Positions 3,822-11,898 of a stretch of 47,577 nucleotides of DNA are shown here, piece after piece (position 1 is the first letter of the stretch; each line of letters starts with the position of its first letter). The stretch covers positions 1 through 47,577 of the forward strand of contig CAMGEM010000003.1 in assembly GCA_946055095.1 (NCBI GenBank), given 5' to 3'. The DNA is from an uncultured Parabacteroides sp. Lineage in GTDB: Bacteria > Bacteroidota > Bacteroidia > Bacteroidales > Tannerellaceae. Both the position numbers and the translations under genes were made by a program. The notes under the pieces are model-generated. The model was not told the origin of the DNA, made no database searches, and saw nothing but the letters and a program-made list of their open reading frames with translations.

Positions 3822-4034
3822 TTATTTGGATTTTTCCAAGATAATTTTCGCCAGTCGAACTTGCAGTTGTTGGAGGGTCTTTATATCCTCGTTTTCAAAG
3901 TCAATGTCGCTGATTTTCGGCGTGCCTTTGACCACGACGGGAGTACTCTTCACATTCTTCAATTCTTTCACCAATTCATCAACTTGTCTTTTGATTTTCT
4001 CACCTTTTAATGCGTAATCAACTGTTCTTGCCAT
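3822..4034 (-). CDS. Small charged protein of unknown function (70 aa)
   Basis: I do not recognise this protein. It is 70 residues, lysine-rich, without signal peptide or membrane segment. Two probable helices (about residues 9-27 and 50-70) flank a short valine-rich stretch (residues 32-36) that could be a beta strand. It is convergent with the efflux operon and divergent from the V-ATPase operon. Support for it being a real gene is structural: a TATATTTG -7 box about 34 bases upstream of the ATG and a clean hairpin-plus-T-run terminator just after the stop. The overlapping plus-strand frame (3826-4017) has no such signals. No function can be assigned. Confidence 0.6.
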   Translation of the reverse strand: MARTVDYALKGEKIKRQVDELVKELKNVKSTPVVVKGTPKISDIDFENEDIKTLQQLQVRLAKIILEKSK

Positions 4035-4292: not shown

Positions 4293-4322
4293 TTTCTCAA
4301 TCCATGGAAAAGAATAACTTTG
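4293..4322 (+). promoter_or_regulatory. Probable promoter of the V-ATPase operon
   Basis: TAACTTTG at 4315-4322 fits TAnnTTTG, with TTTC at 4293-4296 (18-base spacing) as a weak -33 element. It is about 48 bases upstream of the subunit E start. The 335-base gap 4035-4369 otherwise holds only this and the divergent promoter; I see no convincing gene in it. Confidence 0.55.
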
Positions 4323-4369: not shown

Positions 4370-4960
4370 ATGGATACTAAGATTCAAGAACTGACCGACA
4401 AAATCTACAGAGAAGGTGTAGAGAAGGGTAACGAGGAAGCGGGGCGTATCATTGCTGAGGCGAACGCCCAGAAGGAATCAATTGTGAAAGCCGCAGAAGA
4501 GCAGGCTGCTCAAATCGTTGCGGAAGCCGAGAAAAAGGTGGCTGAGCTGAAGAAGAATACGGAGGCTGAGCTGAAGCTGTTCGCTTCCCAATCCGTAGAG
4601 GCGTTGAAAAGTGAGGTGACGAACTTGATTACGGGAGACATTGTCAGCGCGAACGTGAAGGCGGCAGTGACAGACCCGGCTTACATGCAGAAGGTAATCC
4701 TGGAGCTGGTGAAGAGTTGGCCTGCACAGGAGTTCTTGACAATCCAAGCCTCGGAGGCCAGTGCGTTGAAGGCTTACTTCGAGGCGAACGCCAAGGCGTT
4801 GTTGAATAAGGGGTATAAGATTGAGCAGGTGAATGGCAAGAAGGCCTCCTTCTCCATCGTCCCTGCGGATGGTTCCTACAAGGTGACTTTCGGCGAGGAG
4901 GAGTTCGTGGAGTTTTTCAAGGAGTTCTTGCGTCCTCAACTGATCGAAATGCTGTTCTGA
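4370..4960 (+). CDS. V-type ATP synthase/ATPase subunit E (peripheral stalk)
   Basis: First gene of the V-ATPase operon, 196 residues, close to the family's usual length. Residues 1-90 are a long alanine/glutamate/lysine-rich amphipathic helix; residues about 95-196 form the globular head that binds the top of the A3B3 catalytic ring. The subunit is part of the peripheral stalk, the stator that keeps the catalytic head from turning with the rotor. In other V/A-ATPases it forms a heterodimer with the small G/H subunit, which is not recognisable in this operon. The next start follows after 1 base. Confidence 0.85.
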   Translation: MDTKIQELTDKIYREGVEKGNEEAGRIIAEANAQKESIVKAAEEQAAQIVAEAEKKVAELKKNTEAELKLFASQSVEALKSEVTNLITGDIVSANVKAAVTDPAYMQKVILELVKSWPAQEFLTIQASEASALKAYFEANAKALLNKGYKIEQVNGKKASFSIVPADGSYKVTFGEEEFVEFFKEFLRPQLIEMLF

Positions 4961-4961
4961 T

Positions 4962-5840
4962 ATGGGTAAGTATTATTATTTGGTATCTGGACTTCCCGAC
5001 ATCTCCCTGGATGATGGCAAGTTGGCATACACCGTCGCCGATTTTCGGGCGGAGATGGAGGCTGCGCTGTCGGCGAAAGACCAGAAACTGATCGACCTCT
5101 TCTTCTTGAAGTATGACAATGCCAATCTGTTGGCTTGCCTGAAGGGGCCAGACACGCCGTTGGATCCTCGTGGACGTATTACCCGTGAGGCGTTCGAGAC
5201 GGTTTACAAGGCTTTGAAAGAGGAGGAGAAACTGCCGAAGAACGAGGCGATTCCTGCCTATCACGTGACGTTTATCCAACGCTACTTGGCGGAGGAGCAG
5301 AGTGAGCAGAAGGGCGAGAAGGCGCAGGTGTCCTGGGAGGATCAGTTGGCAGCCCTCTATTATGAGGCAGCCATGAAAGCCCCCAATCCCTTTGTGGCCG
5401 GATGGTTTGAGCTTAATCTGAATATTAATAATGTATTGACGGCGATAACGTGCCGTAAGTATGGTTTTGATAAATCCCTCTACATCGTGGGTCACAACGA
5501 GATAGCGGAACAGATCCGCACCTCTAACGCACGCGACTTCGGCCTGTCGGACGCTGTGGAGTACCTGCCAGAGTTGCAGCGTATCGCTGAGGAGACCGAC
5601 CTTTACGCCCGTGAGCGAAAGATTGACCTGTTAAAGTGGAAATGGTTGGAGGAGCAGACCTTCTTCAAGACCTTCGACCTTGAGCGTGTCTTTGCCTACC
5701 TGTTGCAGCTGGAGATGATCGAGCGCTGGGTAAATCTGGATAAGGCCCGGGGCGAGCAGACCTTCCGCGAGCTGGTCGGCGCGATGAAGAAAGGTAGTGA
5801 CCATGCGTTGGAAGAATTTAAAAGAAACAATATAAAATAA
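4962..5840 (+). CDS. DUF2764 protein in the V-ATPase operon, candidate subunit C
   Basis: A 292-residue soluble protein starting MGKYYYLVSGLP, typical of the DUF2764 family found in Bacteroidetes and other bacterial V-ATPase operons. It lies between subunits E and A, where bacterial A/V-ATPase operons carry subunit C, the socket that joins the central stalk to the K ring. The sequence is predicted almost wholly helical, and the C-terminal part (about residues 240-275) resembles the helical repeats of C/AC39 proteins. No recognisable subunit C exists elsewhere in the operon. The role as C is inference from position, size and fold class; the sequence match is too weak to prove it by eye. It is 1 base after subunit E and 2 bases before subunit A. 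Confidence 0.75.
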   Translation: MGKYYYLVSGLPDISLDDGKLAYTVADFRAEMEAALSAKDQKLIDLFFLKYDNANLLACLKGPDTPLDPRGRITREAFETVYKALKEEEKLPKNEAIPAYHVTFIQRYLAEEQSEQKGEKAQVSWEDQLAALYYEAAMKAPNPFVAGWFELNLNINNVLTAITCRKYGFDKSLYIVGHNEIAEQIRTSNARDFGLSDAVEYLPELQRIAEETDLYARERKIDLLKWKWLEEQTFFKTFDLERVFAYLLQLEMIERWVNLDKARGEQTFRELVGAMKKGSDHALEEFKRNNIK

Positions 5841-5842
5841 TT

Positions 5843-7600
5843 ATGGCTACGAAAGGTATTGTAAAAGGAATCGTATCCAATCTGGTAACCGTGGAGGTTG
5901 ACGGTCCGGTTTCCCAGAATGAGATCTGTTACATTTCCGTTGGAGGCGTTAAGCTGATGGCGGAGGTGATTAAGGTTATAGGTAAGAATGCCTTTGTACA
6001 GGTGTTCGAGAGCACGCGTGGTATGCGTGTCGGCGATGAGGCCGAGTTCCAAGGGCACATGTTGGAGGTGACGTTGGGCCCGGGTATGCTCTCTCGCAAT
6101 TACGATGGTCTGCAGAATGACTTGGACAAGATGCAGGGTGTCTTCTTGAAGCGAGGTGAATATACGTTCCCGTTGGATAGTGAGAAGAAGTGGGCGTTTA
6201 AACCCTTGGCTAAAGTGGGCGATAGGGTAGGCGCTGGTGACTGGTTAGGTGAGGTGGATGAGAATTCCCAACCGCATAAGATCATGGTACCCTTTACGTT
6301 CCAAGGCACCTACACCGTGAAGGAGGTGGCTGCCGAGGGCGCATATACCATTAATGACACGATGGCTGTCTTGACTGATGCGAATGGTGCGGAGGTGAAG
6401 GTGACCATGGTGCAGAAATGGCCGGTGAAGCGGGCGATCACCTGCTACCGTGAGAAACCCCGTCCCTTCAAGTTGCTGGAGACAGGTGTCCGCACGATTG
6501 ATACGGTGAACCCCATCGTTGAGGGTGGTACAGGCTTTATCCCTGGTCCCTTCGGTACAGGAAAGACGGTGTTGCAACATGCGATCTCTAAGCAGGCTGA
6601 AGCCGACATCGTGATCATCGCGGCCTGCGGTGAGCGTGCGAATGAGGTGGTGGAGGTCTTCACGGAGTTCCCTGAGTTGATCGACCCCCATACAGGGCGT
6701 AAGTTGATGGAGCGTACCATCATCATCGCCAATACGTCTAACATGCCGGTGGCAGCCCGTGAGGCTTCCGTATATACCGCAATGACCATTGCCGAGTATT
6801 ACCGAGGCATGGGCTTGAAGGTGTTGTTGATGGCCGATTCTACTTCTCGTTGGGCACAGGCGTTGCGTGAGATGTCAAACCGTTTGGAGGAGTTGCCTGG
6901 ACCGGATGCCTTCCCGATGGACTTGTCTGCGATCGTGGCTAACTTCTATGCCCGTGCCGGATTCGTGCATTTGAAGAATGGGGCAACCGGATCAGTTACC
7001 TTCATCGGAACCGTATCTCCTGCTGGTGGTAACTTGAAGGAGCCTGTGACGGAGAACACGAAGAAGGTGGCTCGTTGTTTCTATGCGTTGGAGCAAGAGC
7101 GTGCCGACCGTAAGCGCTACCCGGCTGTCAACCCGATTGATAGCTATTCCAAGTATTTGGAGTATCCTGAGTTTCAGGAGTACATTTCTAAGCATATCTC
7201 TCCCAATTGGATCGAGAAGGTGAATGAGATCAAGACCCGTATGTTGCGTGGTAAGGAGATCGCCGAGCAGATCAATATCTTGGGTGACGACGGTGTGCCC
7301 GTGGCTTATCACGTCACTTTCTGGAAGTCTGAGTTGATTGACTTCGTCATCCTCCAACAAGATGCCTTCGACGCGATTGATGCCGTCACTCCGTTGGCTC
7401 GTCAGGAGTTTATGTTGGATCGGGTAGTGAATATTTGCCGTGCCGAATTCCAGTTTGACACTTTCTTGGATGTGATGGATTATTTCAAGAAGATGATCAA
7501 TATCTGCAAGCAGATGAACTACTCTGAGTACCAGAGCGAGGCATTCAAGCAGCACAATGCGGAGTTGGATGAGTTGTTAAAGGAGAGAATCGTAAAATAA
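5843..7600 (+). CDS. V-type ATP synthase/ATPase catalytic subunit A
   Basis: A 585-residue catalytic nucleotide-binding subunit, normal length for the family. The N-terminal beta-barrel is at about residues 1-70. The bulge domain specific to A subunits lies at about 110-190. The P-loop GPFGTGKT is at residues 234-241, and the catalytic glutamate lies in the GERANE motif shortly after. The Walker B stretch VLLMADSTSRWAQALRE follows, then the helical C-terminal domain. It hydrolyses or makes ATP in the A3B3 head. The P-loop reads GPFGTGKT rather than the common GAFGCGKT; glycines, lysine and threonine are kept, so activity should be intact. Confidence 0.97.
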   Translation: MATKGIVKGIVSNLVTVEVDGPVSQNEICYISVGGVKLMAEVIKVIGKNAFVQVFESTRGMRVGDEAEFQGHMLEVTLGPGMLSRNYDGLQNDLDKMQGVFLKRGEYTFPLDSEKKWAFKPLAKVGDRVGAGDWLGEVDENSQPHKIMVPFTFQGTYTVKEVAAEGAYTINDTMAVLTDANGAEVKVTMVQKWPVKRAITCYREKPRPFKLLETGVRTIDTVNPIVEGGTGFIPGPFGTGKTVLQHAISKQAEADIVIIAACGERANEVVEVFTEFPELIDPHTGRKLMERTIIIANTSNMPVAAREASVYTAMTIAEYYRGMGLKVLLMADSTSRWAQALREMSNRLEELPGPDAFPMDLSAIVANFYARAGFVHLKNGATGSVTFIGTVSPAGGNLKEPVTENTKKVARCFYALEQERADRKRYPAVNPIDSYSKYLEYPEFQEYISKHISPNWIEKVNEIKTRMLRGKEIAEQINILGDDGVPVAYHVTFWKSELIDFVILQQDAFDAIDAVTPLARQEFMLDRVVNICRAEFQFDTFLDVMDYFKKMINICKQMNYSEYQSEAFKQHNAELDELLKERIVK

Positions 7601-7609
7601 ACGTGACGT

Positions 7610-8929
7610 ATGGCAACAAAAGCATTTCAAAAGATATATACGAAGATTACCCAGATCACGAAAGCGACCTGCTCGTTGAAAGCGACAGGCGTAGGGTATG
7701 ATGAGTTGGCCTCTGTCGATGGCAAGCTGGCTCAGGTGGTTAAGATTGTCGGCGACGAGGTGACGTTGCAGGTTTTCTCCGGAACGGAGGGCATCCGCAC
7801 CAACGCCGAGGTGGTGTTCATGGGCAAGGCTCCCTCTTTGAAGGTGGGCGACCAGCTGGCAGGACGTTTCTTCAATGCCTATGGTGAGCCGATTGATGGC
7901 GGACCTATTCCTGAAGGACGTGAGGTGGAGATCGGTGGTCCCTCTGTGAACCCCGTGCGTCGTAAACAGCCTTCTGAGTTGATCGCGACAGGTATTGCCG
8001 GTATCGACTTGAACAACACGTTGGTGACAGGACAGAAGATTCCCTTCTTCGCGGATCCTGACCAGCCTTTCAATCAGGTAATGGCGATGGTAGCCCTTCG
8101 TGCGCAGTCAGATAAGATTATCTTAGGTGGTATGGGTATGACCAATGACGATTACCTCTTCTTCAAGAATACCTTCAGCAACGCGGGTGCCTTGGATCGT
8201 ATCGTCAGCTTCATCAATACGACAGAGGATCCCTCTGTGGAGCGTATCTTGATTCCGGATATGGCCTTGACAGCCGCAGAGTATTTCGCTGTGGAGAAGA
8301 ACGAGAAGGTGCTCGTCTTGTTGACCGATATGACCAACTACGCCGATGCCTTGGCGATTGTCTCCAACCGTATGGATCAGATTCCATCCAAGGACTCTAT
8401 GCCGGGTTCTCTTTACTCCGATTTGGCGAAGATTTACGAGAAGGCGGTGCAGTTCCCCGCAGGTGGATCTATCACGATTATCGCTGTGACGACCCTTTCG
8501 GGAGGTGATATTACCCATGCGGTGCCTGATAACACGGGTTACATCACGGAGGGTCAGCTCTACTTGCGTCGAGATAGCGATGTGGGTAAGGTTATCGTCG
8601 ATCCGTTCCGAAGCCTCTCTCGTTTGAAACAGTTGGTAACGGGTAAGAAGACCCGCGAGGATCACCCGCAGGTAATGAACGCGGCGGTACGACTCTATGC
8701 CGATGCGGCCAATGCGAAGACCAAGATGGAGAATGGTTTCGACTTGACCGACTACGACAACCGTGCCCTCGCTTTCGCGAAGGATTATTCATCGAAGCTG
8801 TTGGCGATCGATGTTAACCTCGATACCACCGAGATGCTCGACGTGGCATGGGGCTTGTTCGCTAAGTACTTCAATCCTGCCGAGGTGAATATCAAGCAGG
8901 TATTCGTGGATAAGTATTGGAAGAACTAA
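7610..8929 (+). CDS. V-type ATP synthase/ATPase non-catalytic subunit B
   Basis: A 439-residue partner of subunit A. It has the same three-domain layout, but the P-loop position reads KIPFFADPDQPFNQ, without the GxxxxGK pattern, as expected of the non-catalytic regulatory subunit. Typical B motifs are seen: GIDLNNTLVTGQKIPFF near residues 128-144, LVLLTDMTNYADAL in the middle, and GGDITHAVPD before the C-terminal domain. It alternates with A in the hexameric head. Start ATG at 7610 follows the A stop by 9 bases. Confidence 0.97.
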   Translation: MATKAFQKIYTKITQITKATCSLKATGVGYDELASVDGKLAQVVKIVGDEVTLQVFSGTEGIRTNAEVVFMGKAPSLKVGDQLAGRFFNAYGEPIDGGPIPEGREVEIGGPSVNPVRRKQPSELIATGIAGIDLNNTLVTGQKIPFFADPDQPFNQVMAMVALRAQSDKIILGGMGMTNDDYLFFKNTFSNAGALDRIVSFINTTEDPSVERILIPDMALTAAEYFAVEKNEKVLVLLTDMTNYADALAIVSNRMDQIPSKDSMPGSLYSDLAKIYEKAVQFPAGGSITIIAVTTLSGGDITHAVPDNTGYITEGQLYLRRDSDVGKVIVDPFRSLSRLKQLVTGKKTREDHPQVMNAAVRLYADAANAKTKMENGFDLTDYDNRALAFAKDYSSKLLAIDVNLDTTEMLDVAWGLFAKYFNPAEVNIKQVFVDKYWKN

Positions 8930-8948: not shown

Positions 8949-9569
8949 ATGGCTATTAAGTTTCAATATAATAAGACATCGCTTCAGCAATTGGAGAAGC
9001 AGCTGAAGATGCGTGAGCGCTCCCTGCCTACGATCAAGAGCAAGGAGAGTGCCCTGCGTATCGAGGTGAAGCGCACCAAGGATGAGGTGAGTAAATTGGA
9101 ACTTCAGCTGGAGCAAGAGATACAGAGCTACGAGAATATGGTGGCGCTGTGGAACGAGTTCAATCCCGAGTTGATCGGCGTGAAGGATGTCTCCCTCTCG
9201 ACGAAGAAGATCGCGGGTGTGGTCGTTCCGTTGTTGGATGAGATTAAATTCGAGATCGGACATTACAGTCTCTTTAGTGCCCCCGCTTGGTATGCCGATG
9301 GTATAGACCTGCTGAAGAAGCTGGCACGTACAGGCATAGAGGCGGAGTTCGCGGGCATGAAGCTGGAGTTGCTGGAGCACGCCAGGAAGAAGACCACGCA
9401 AAAGGTCAACCTTTTTGAGAAGGTGCAGATCCCTGGCTATAAGGATGCGATCCGTAAAGTGAAACGATTCATGGAAGACGAGGAGAGCCTCTCCAAGTCT
9501 TCGCAGAAGATCATGAGGTCTAATCAAGAAAAGCGCAAAGCGAAAGAAGAGGAGGAGGTTGCCGTATGA
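8949..9569 (+). CDS. V-type ATP synthase/ATPase subunit D (central rotor shaft)
   Basis: A 206-residue protein. Residues about 5-70 and 130-195 are long charged helices expected to pair as the coiled coil that turns inside A3B3, with a short middle region that would face subunits F and C. The opening (FQYNKTSLQQLEKQL) and the charged C-terminal tail fit D subunits. No F subunit, the usual small partner of D, is found in the operon. Its stop overlaps the start of subunit I (ATGA), giving translational coupling. Confidence 0.88.
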   Translation: MAIKFQYNKTSLQQLEKQLKMRERSLPTIKSKESALRIEVKRTKDEVSKLELQLEQEIQSYENMVALWNEFNPELIGVKDVSLSTKKIAGVVVPLLDEIKFEIGHYSLFSAPAWYADGIDLLKKLARTGIEAEFAGMKLELLEHARKKTTQKVNLFEKVQIPGYKDAIRKVKRFMEDEESLSKSSQKIMRSNQEKRKAKEEEEVAV

Positions 9570-11410
9570 TCGCTAAAATGGAGAAACTGACCTTCCTTAT
9601 CTATCATAAGGAATATGAGCGCTTCTTGACGGAGTTGCGAACGCTGGGTGTCGTGCATGTCGAGCTGAAGCAACAAGGAGAGAGCGACGAGAAATTGCAA
9701 GCCCTCTTGCAGCAGTATGCCGCCTATAAGACGGTTCTCAAGGAGATGTCGGCGTTCACGTCCAATGCGGCACCGGGTCATCTGGAGGGAGATGCCACGA
9801 TAGAGGCTACCCTGCGTGATTTCGAGGCTATGCAAGGTAGGCAACAGCAGTTGATGGCGCAGCTTCCGGCGTTGGATCGTGAGATAGCGATGCTGGAGCC
9901 TTGGGGAGAGTTCGATTGGCAAACGATCGACAGCCTGAAGGCTAACGGTTGGGTGATGCAGTTCTTCTGCTGCCCTGAGAAAGCGTTCGACGAGGCATGG
10001 CGGGATAGCTGCCATGCGACGGTGATCAGCGTGAAGGGTGGACAGGCCTATTTCGTGACCGTTAACCGGGAGCCAGTGGAGTTGGAGGCCGAGACGGTTC
10101 GCCTGCCTCATCATCGCCTTTCGGAGCTCAAGAGCCGTCGAGAGGTCTTGAGTGAGGAGATTGCAGCCTCCAAGCGCGACCTGTCTGCCTATTGCGTGAC
10201 ACATGTCCCCATTGTGGAGGCCGCTATGCGTGTCTTGCAGAGTGAGATCGATCTCTTGAAGGTGACATTGGGTGGTGAGCGCATGGCTGATGGTGCTTTG
10301 GTGTTGTTGGAGGGCTGGGTGCCCGAAGAGAATGGTGCGGCTGTCCGTCAGATGTTAGAATCGAGTGGCGTTTACTACGAGATGCGTCCTGCTGAGAAGG
10401 AGGAGAACGCACCGATCAAGCTGAAGAATAATGCGGTGACACGTCTCTTTGAGGTGCTCACGAAGATGTATGGAATGCCTGATTACGCAGAGTTCGACCC
10501 GACTCCGATGTTGGCGCCCTTCTATGCGCTCTTCTTTGGTCTCTGTGTCGGCGATGCGGGTTATGGCCTTTTGCTGGTCTTGTTAGGACTCTATCTTAAA
10601 CGGAAGGTGAGCCGTTCGATGGCCGGTATGATGAATCTGTTGATCACGCTGGGTCTGGCAACGACGATTGTGGGTGCTTTGGTGGGTACCTTCATGGGCG
10701 TAGAGCTGGTTAGTCTTGACCTGCCGGAATGGATCAAGCAAAGCATGATTGTCGGCAAGTTCGGTGATACGGCTTACGATAAGACGATGATTTTCGCCTT
10801 GATCGTGGGTATGTTCCACTTGATTTTTGCGATGACGGTGAAGGCTATTTGTGCGACTGCCCGTTTTGGCTTCAAGAATGCCCTCTCCGAATGGGGCTGG
10901 TGGCTCTTTGTCGGTGGTACGGTAGCTATTGCTACACTCAACTACTTGGATGTCCTCTCTATGGATCTTGCCAAGACAGCTTTCATTGCGATCAGTGGTG
11001 TGTCTGCAATCGGTATCTATTTACTCAACAACCTGAAACGGAATGTCCTCATCAATGTGGGTGCTGGCTTATGGGCTACCTATAATATGGCGACTGGCTT
11101 GATGGGAGACTTGCTTTCCTACCTCCGTCTCTATGCGCTTGGCTTGGCTGGCGGTATGTTGGGAGGTGTTTTCAACACGTTGGGTATGCAGTTGCGTGAC
11201 AGTCTCGACGGGGTGCTCTTCGGCATTCCGGGCTGGATCTGTTTCGCCCTCATCTTCGTCTTCGGTCATGGTTTGAACATTGCCCTCTCTTGTTTGAGCG
11301 GTTATGTCCACTCTATCCGTTTGACATTTGTCGAATATTTCAAGAACTCTGGTTATGATGGCAGAGGTGTTGCCTACAAGCCCTTCTCCACCACTAACGC
11401 AGAGGAATAA
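9566..11410 (+). CDS. V-type ATP synthase/ATPase subunit I (a-type, 116-kDa family)
   Basis: A 614-residue membrane stator. Residues 1-320 are the cytoplasmic domain that binds the peripheral stalks. From about residue 320 onward there are about seven or eight hydrophobic segments. Arg521, in the DLLSYLRLYALGLAGG motif, is the essential arginine of the ion half-channel (matching the LRLWAL motif of eukaryotic a-subunits), which interacts with the acidic residue of the K ring. The start overlaps the D stop by 4 bases. Length is normal for short bacterial I subunits. Confidence 0.93.
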   Translation: MIAKMEKLTFLIYHKEYERFLTELRTLGVVHVELKQQGESDEKLQALLQQYAAYKTVLKEMSAFTSNAAPGHLEGDATIEATLRDFEAMQGRQQQLMAQLPALDREIAMLEPWGEFDWQTIDSLKANGWVMQFFCCPEKAFDEAWRDSCHATVISVKGGQAYFVTVNREPVELEAETVRLPHHRLSELKSRREVLSEEIAASKRDLSAYCVTHVPIVEAAMRVLQSEIDLLKVTLGGERMADGALVLLEGWVPEENGAAVRQMLESSGVYYEMRPAEKEENAPIKLKNNAVTRLFEVLTKMYGMPDYAEFDPTPMLAPFYALFFGLCVGDAGYGLLLVLLGLYLKRKVSRSMAGMMNLLITLGLATTIVGALVGTFMGVELVSLDLPEWIKQSMIVGKFGDTAYDKTMIFALIVGMFHLIFAMTVKAICATARFGFKNALSEWGWWLFVGGTVAIATLNYLDVLSMDLAKTAFIAISGVSAIGIYLLNNLKRNVLINVGAGLWATYNMATGLMGDLLSYLRLYALGLAGGMLGGVFNTLGMQLRDSLDGVLFGIPGWICFALIFVFGHGLNIALSCLSGYVHSIRLTFVEYFKNSGYDGRGVAYKPFSTTNAEE

Positions 11411-11454: not shown

Positions 11455-11898
<444 letters not shown>

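Follow-up and report, generated by a model that had tools for sequence, protein, structure and literature searches.

The window, by which we mean the whole stretch of 47,577 nucleotides analysed here, comes from a Parabacteroides-like genome and carries a tight V/A-type ATPase operon, the second gene of which encodes a protein with a DUF2764 domain. The open reading frame has an ATG start, encodes 292 amino acids and is a real gene, as the earlier note on this DNA had assumed. The same note had read the gene order as E-DUF2764-A-B-D-I-K. This order proved correct, with A, B, D, I and K assigned by Pfam or NCBIfam models (Table 1). The product of the first gene matches the NCBIfam model of V-type subunit E with an E-value of 1.5e-24, yet stays under the cut-off of that model. 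The DUF2764 gene (X) lies 1 base 3' of E and 2 bases 5' of A, and the intergenic gaps along E-X-A-B-D-I-K measure 1, 2, 9, 19, -4 and 65 bases. Given this gene order and these very small gaps, the seven genes were considered to form one operon. All related loci that are long enough to cover it show the E-DUF2764-A-B-D-I-K order. The closest relatives belong to Parabacteroides, the locus L003 of P. distasonis An897 being 96% identical. Promoters of Bacteroidota carry a -7 element with the consensus TAnnTTTG. The element TAACTTTG upstream of E, which matches this consensus, is judged from the sequence to be the likely start of the operon, and either TAACTTTG or TATCTTTG is kept near the same position in most of the sampled Parabacteroides relatives.

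Table 1. Features of the ATPase operon in the window, and shortened DUF2764 genes at related loci. Positions refer to the window unless a locus is named.
Feature	Position	Strand	Basis
TAACTTTG element, likely operon start	4315..4322	+	upstream of E (~50 bases), sequence
Peripheral stalk subunit E, atpE-like, diverged, 196 aa	4370..4960	+	NCBIfam PRK01558
DUF2764 protein, very probably a diverged V/A-ATPase subunit C (AC39/d family), 292 aa	4962..5840	+	PF10962, PF01992, Foldseek
N-terminal motif YYYLV(A/S)GLP, residues 4-12	4971..4997	+	column counts in alignment A2, alignment A6
Stretch matching the C/AC39 profile, residues 38-251 (profile 77-314 of 339)	5073..5714	+	profile match
D52-x-x-N55 motif	5115..5126	+	D in 35/37 and N in 35/37 sequences
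Second repeat WFELNLNINNVLTAITCRKYG, residues 148-168	5403..5465	+	profile register, weak hhalign in the same register
Third repeat F238-x-x-E241...L259	5673..5738	+	counterpart of Thermus GVGLVLAYVKEREWEAVRL; profile ends at residue 251
Catalytic subunit A	5843..7600	+	NCBIfam NF003220, 5.2e-232
Subunit B	7610..8929	+	NCBIfam NF002555, 1.6e-213
Rotor shaft subunit D	8949..9569	+	NCBIfam NF002565, 1.9e-72
Membrane stator subunit I	9566..11410	+	Pfam V_ATPase_I, 6.8e-26
Ring subunit K, double hairpin	11476..11898	+	Pfam ATP-synt_C, two stretches, 1.6e-24
206-aa DUF2764	L056:8916-9536		V-ATPase operon
203-aa DUF2764	L057:6077-6688		V-ATPase operon
195-aa DUF2764	L058:9161-9748		V-ATPase operon
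168-aa DUF2764	L055:9595-10101		V-ATPase operon, G413

The sequence of K contains a single candidate ring carboxylate, E127, with Q58 in the other hairpin. The K subunit of B. fragilis is reported to have conserved Na+-binding residues (PMC10790697). Two further features of the neighbourhood were recorded. A 70-residue open reading frame (window 3822-4034, minus strand) with no Pfam match is flanked by the ATPase operon on one side and by an outer membrane efflux gene on the other. At the loci L004 and L006, identity to the window is 67-97% for subunits E, C (DUF2764), A, B and D, 35-36% for I and 50-52% for K; Parabacteroides congeners at a comparable distance show 64-71% identity for I and 91-96% for K. 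The breakpoint falls between D and I, the DUF2764 gene remaining with the soluble half, and from these sequences the membrane pair I-K looks to have been exchanged as a cassette within Parabacteroides.

In hmmscan, the DUF2764 protein matches PF10962 from end to end (E 1e-110, 370 bits against a cut-off of 24.1); no NCBIfam model was found for it. Its second match is PF01992, the ATP synthase C/AC39 family, with an E-value of 4.9e-9 and a score of 36.4 bits, the curated cut-off being 29. The operon had been described in the earlier note as having no recognisable C subunit. The operon order behind this statement stands, while its wording does not, since the DUF2764 protein itself exceeds the current Pfam cut-off for C/AC39. 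A set of 37 diverse DUF2764 proteins, drawn from whole genomes and from related contigs, was aligned (alignment A2, with 41% mean identity per column), and each of them was compared with Pfam. All 37 matched DUF2764, and 20 matched AC39 at E<=1 (best 3e-11), the other 17 giving no AC39 match individually. The next commonest family was an EF-hand model (2/37), and no unrelated family was found in more than two members. The DUF2764 proteins of genomes G403, G408 and G416 also lie over the PF01992 cut-off, most other members being under it. Three reversed DUF2764 sequences, used as a control, gave no AC39 match.

In genome searches, the longer or full-length AC39 matches on DUF2764 genes shared one common register, covering profile positions ~70-314, and the first ~70 positions of the C/AC39 profile were unmatched in DUF2764. 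As probes for the opposite direction, we used Thermus C (identical end to end to 1r5z_A), Rubrobacter C and yeast d (identical end to end to 3j9t_Q). None of them gave a reciprocal match to the DUF2764 profile, so the link between C and DUF2764 is visible from one side only. No C subunit was found among the PDB sequences by single-sequence phmmer or by hmmsearch with the A2 profile. The comparison of the DUF2764 alignment with two small C/d alignments, of 3 and 2 sequences, yielded hhalign probabilities of 0.9% and 8.1%, the set comprising Thermus, Rubrobacter and two eukaryotic sequences, of which the eukaryotic ones were misaligned by MAFFT. The second comparison, with the 2-sequence C alignment, preserved the expected register. 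As a C subunit, DUF2764 would have changed too far for ordinary similarity searches to detect the kinship, and its N-terminal domain would be shortened.

The single AC39 match in the genome of the window (84% complete) is the DUF2764 gene. Among 33 near-complete genomes (95-100%) carrying DUF2764, no other significant C gene was detected, the best match elsewhere having an E-value of 0.026. The absence of a separate C gene thus holds for the window's own genome and these 33 relatives, in which all significant C/AC39 matches fall on DUF2764 in one register. A phylum survey also returned AC39 matches outside DUF2764 genomes (E 1e-3 to 1e-2); these lie below the cut-off and were set aside as noise. 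Co-occurrence with the ATPase was assessed in 149 Bacteroidales genomes, with the V/A-specific A-subunit domain PF16886 as the marker of subunit A. This domain was present in 55 genomes, and profile search detected DUF2764 in 53, all of them among the 55. In one of the two exceptions (G307), the contig stops just upstream of A. The other (G413) carries a DUF2764 protein of 168 residues next to D, which exceeds the DUF2764 cut-off in a scan of the full protein (E 4.1e-6). DUF2764 therefore accompanies every V-ATPase with an intact operon in the sampled Bacteroidales (54 genomes), and the contig of the 55th ends beside A.

We then modelled the window protein together with 11 relatives, using AlphaFold2, whose training set included C subunits (pLDDT 81, pTM 0.80). 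A second AlphaFold model was obtained for L011, which is ~38% identical to the window protein (pLDDT 80, pTM 0.81). The model of the window protein is almost all helix over 292 residues, in line with the earlier description of a helical protein near the right size, and no membrane segment was detected in it (top 19-residue Kyte-Doolittle mean of 0.97, against 2.14 for K). Both models were compared with the whole PDB (350,542 chains) using Foldseek. For the window model, Thermus C (1v9m) ranked first with a probability of 1.00, followed by mammalian d (0.93) and yeast d (0.69). The remaining listed matches had probabilities of at most 0.16, the match at 0.16 being another yeast d chain. For the L011 model, Thermus C was again first (8ywt and 1v9m, both 1.00), followed by yeast, rat and human d. 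In both cases, matches with a probability above 0.5 were exclusively C or eukaryotic d subunits. The C/AC39 fold, on which the earlier note had staked its proposal beforehand, was thus recovered with Thermus C at the top for two models.

The confident matches aligned over nearly the full length, with global TM-scores of 0.39-0.52 and Foldseek E-values of at least 0.0065. By ranking, the predicted fold of DUF2764 is the same as that of C, with lobes that superpose non-rigidly. The E-values above 1e-3 and the global TM-scores suggest that the lobes may be arranged differently from those of C in these models. An imperfect superposition is unsurprising, since Thermus C opens its domain 1 upon binding of D (PMC5758568). 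The end-to-end alignment of the models with C/d proteins also points to a three-lobed architecture of DUF2764.

Conserved motifs were then placed in relation to those of Thermus C. Conservation within the family is strongest at the N-terminal YYYLV(A/S)GLP, which is partly kept as LVYLITSLP even in the 168-residue form, and we propose by analogy that this stretch may be the helix contacting the ring. According to motif and profile register, D52-x-x-N55 is the probable counterpart of D92-L-H94-N95 in Thermus C, whose cavity receives the tip of the shaft, subunit D, near H94 (PMC5758568). The second repeat WFELNLNINNVLTAITCRKYG is the counterpart of Thermus YLALEVDAENLRTAFK, with N157 invariant. 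In the third repeat, F238 is invariant, and E241 and R255 are found in 35/37 and 36/37 sequences, respectively. The N-terminal helix of Thermus C is held to the ring by R11 and R13 against ring E47 (PMC5758568). No obvious counterpart of these two arginines was found in the 37 sequences, where the N-terminus (YYYLVAGLP) contains no conserved Arg; what is lacking is a detail of Thermus, not a requirement of the family. Position 13 of DUF2764 is acidic or Asn (D/E/N) in 35/37 sequences, and every Bacteroidales ring compared has a pair of lysines in its K loop (xxKK), the diverged ring of G413 excepted; the basic ring loop reads GA[LM]KK. In Thermus, C is the basic partner and the ring loop the acidic one. 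These residues would be consistent with a ring contact of a chemistry other than that of Thermus, inverted in charge.

Members of the DUF2764 family differ in size, going down to 168-206 residues in some lineages. In genomes G304, G396 and G421, a DUF2764 protein of 195-206 residues occupies the same place in the operon (Table 1). In the alignment, these forms lack about window residues 53-125, including the D-x-x-N socket helix, and keep the second and third repeats. The missing lobe is the one that contacts the shaft in Thermus. In the corresponding enzymes, either D and C must be connected in another way or the socket lies elsewhere than in Thermus. The genome with the shortest form, G413, was also seen to encode a strongly diverged V-ATPase (L055:5837-13000), with the order A-B-E-X-D-I-K and a subunit A that is 41% identical.

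Two other subunits were sought by profile search. Nothing exceeded the cut-off for F (PF01990) in the genome of the window or in 33 relatives, or for G (PF16999) in 17 genomes, and neither family was among those matched by the 37 DUF2764 members. The best, non-significant G-like match in the genome of the window (4412-4624) lies inside the E gene, as do the weak G matches of many relatives. This signal may come only from a shared coiled coil, or it may hint at self-pairing of E within the peripheral stalk. The rotor seems to operate without F. In the list of gaps in the Bacteroidota V-ATPase, C can apparently be struck off, with F and G remaining. With somewhat less than even confidence, we suggest that Bacteroidales have a seven-gene rotary ATPase with a D-C-K rotor devoid of F and a stator in which E has no distinct G beside it. 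C would be cut to 195-206 residues in some lineages of this enzyme, with loss of the socket lobe, and in one to 168, torque passing through a reduced or different joint.

Profile, predicted fold and operon position place DUF2764 computationally in the C/AC39 family, and the case for its homology with C is strong. The proposal that it is a highly diverged C/AC39 homologue is supported by the profile, by the predicted fold and by its status as the single candidate. We consider it very probable that DUF2764 corresponds to V/A-ATPase subunit C (eukaryotic d, AC39), the rotor socket that joins D to the K ring. A reading in which C was replaced by DUF2764 as an unrelated helical protein, the likeness being that of any helical bundle, fits the single-sequence PDB search, which gave no match, and the weak profile-profile scores obtained with small alignments. 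It is at odds with profile E-values reaching 3e-11 in a consistent register over many members with no competing family, with the negative reversed controls, and with the top ranks of two models being held only by C/d among all PDB chains. This reading is largely refuted and very unlikely to be correct. We regard it as equally improbable that DUF2764 replaces F or G in an enzyme devoid of any C. F and G are likewise not found, and position alone cannot say which part was replaced; however, the Pfam families of the 37 members include C/AC39 and no F or G model, and the size and fold suit C rather than an F or G of ~100 residues.

The remaining alternative concerns function rather than descent. 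DUF2764 could derive from C/AC39 and now act as an assembly chaperone or regulator outside the rotor, with D touching the ring directly. The loss of the lobe with the presumed D socket from the shortened forms would agree with this, as would the Thermus Arg-Glu ring contact not being visible in DUF2764 and the absence of F, which may point to a rebuilt central stalk. Nevertheless, DUF2764 is found in every sampled V-ATPase operon whose relevant part is intact, nearly always directly between the stalk gene E and A, and its conserved residues include those common to the C repeats (D52, N55, N157). A role as chaperone or regulator is therefore unlikely, if less so than the two other alternatives. 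By analogy, DUF2764 would most likely serve as the rotor socket, linking shaft D with the K ring.

In the mechanism that we propose for DUF2764 as the socket, the protein would form a funnel seated on the K ring at the cytoplasmic side, with the ring gripped by the N-terminal helix. The socket, including the D52-x-x-N55 helix, would receive the tip of shaft subunit D, giving a rotor composed of D, C and K without an F subunit. ATP hydrolysis in A3B3 would drive joint rotation of D, C and the ring, and this rotation would carry ions (probably Na+) past subunit I, or the enzyme would run in the reverse direction.

Among known systems, Thermus thermophilus subunit C (1r5z/1v9m/8ywt; PF01992) resembles DUF2764 in predicted fold, being the best PDB match of both models, in its two D/E-x-x-N type helices and C-terminal repeat, arranged in the same order, and in being a member of a V/A-ATPase gene set. 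Unlike Thermus C, to which it is ~13-16% identical in structural alignment, DUF2764 has an N-terminal part that is ~40 residues shorter and does not conserve the Arg ring contacts; F and G, moreover, are present in the Thermus enzyme. Eukaryotic subunit d (Vma6, ATP6V0D1; PF01992) forms the second group of structural matches, with TM-scores mostly of 0.4-0.5. This subunit is longer (345-351 residues), and the eukaryotic regulators C and H have no counterpart in the operon of the window. A survey of hypothetical proteins of Treponema pallidum named TPASS_0534 as V-type subunit C; we found no statement on DUF2764. This hypothetical protein, from a phylum whose member Borrelia has a V-ATPase cluster described as devoid of C, was assigned the same function as proposed here for DUF2764, and the assignment is a precedent for spirochaetes. 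As far as the account of Lolkema 2003 given in PMC2936114 goes, the V-ATPase clusters of Borrelia, Chlamydia and Kuenenia lack homologues of C, F and G. By this description they show the same apparent gap, while the Kuenenia cluster differs, in the same account, by an extra open reading frame of unknown function between B and D.

In B. fragilis, the V-type operon with the DUF2764 gene is required for fitness in deoxycholate, and a study of 2023 placed it among the strongest such factors (PMC10790697). In that study, DUF2764 was left as a protein of unknown function, and it was noted that there are too few connecting subunits. We found no paper in the open-access literature that assigns a function to DUF2764. 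Its assignment as subunit C would replace the label "unknown function" by a part that has been described as missing from closely similar pumps. It would close one of the three gaps (C, F and G) in an enzyme of abundant gut bacteria and provide a credible central stalk for the Bacteroidota V-ATPase. The question then becomes sharper: how the enzyme turns without F and is braced without G. The natural short C proteins would offer a ready set for probing what a socket minimally requires.
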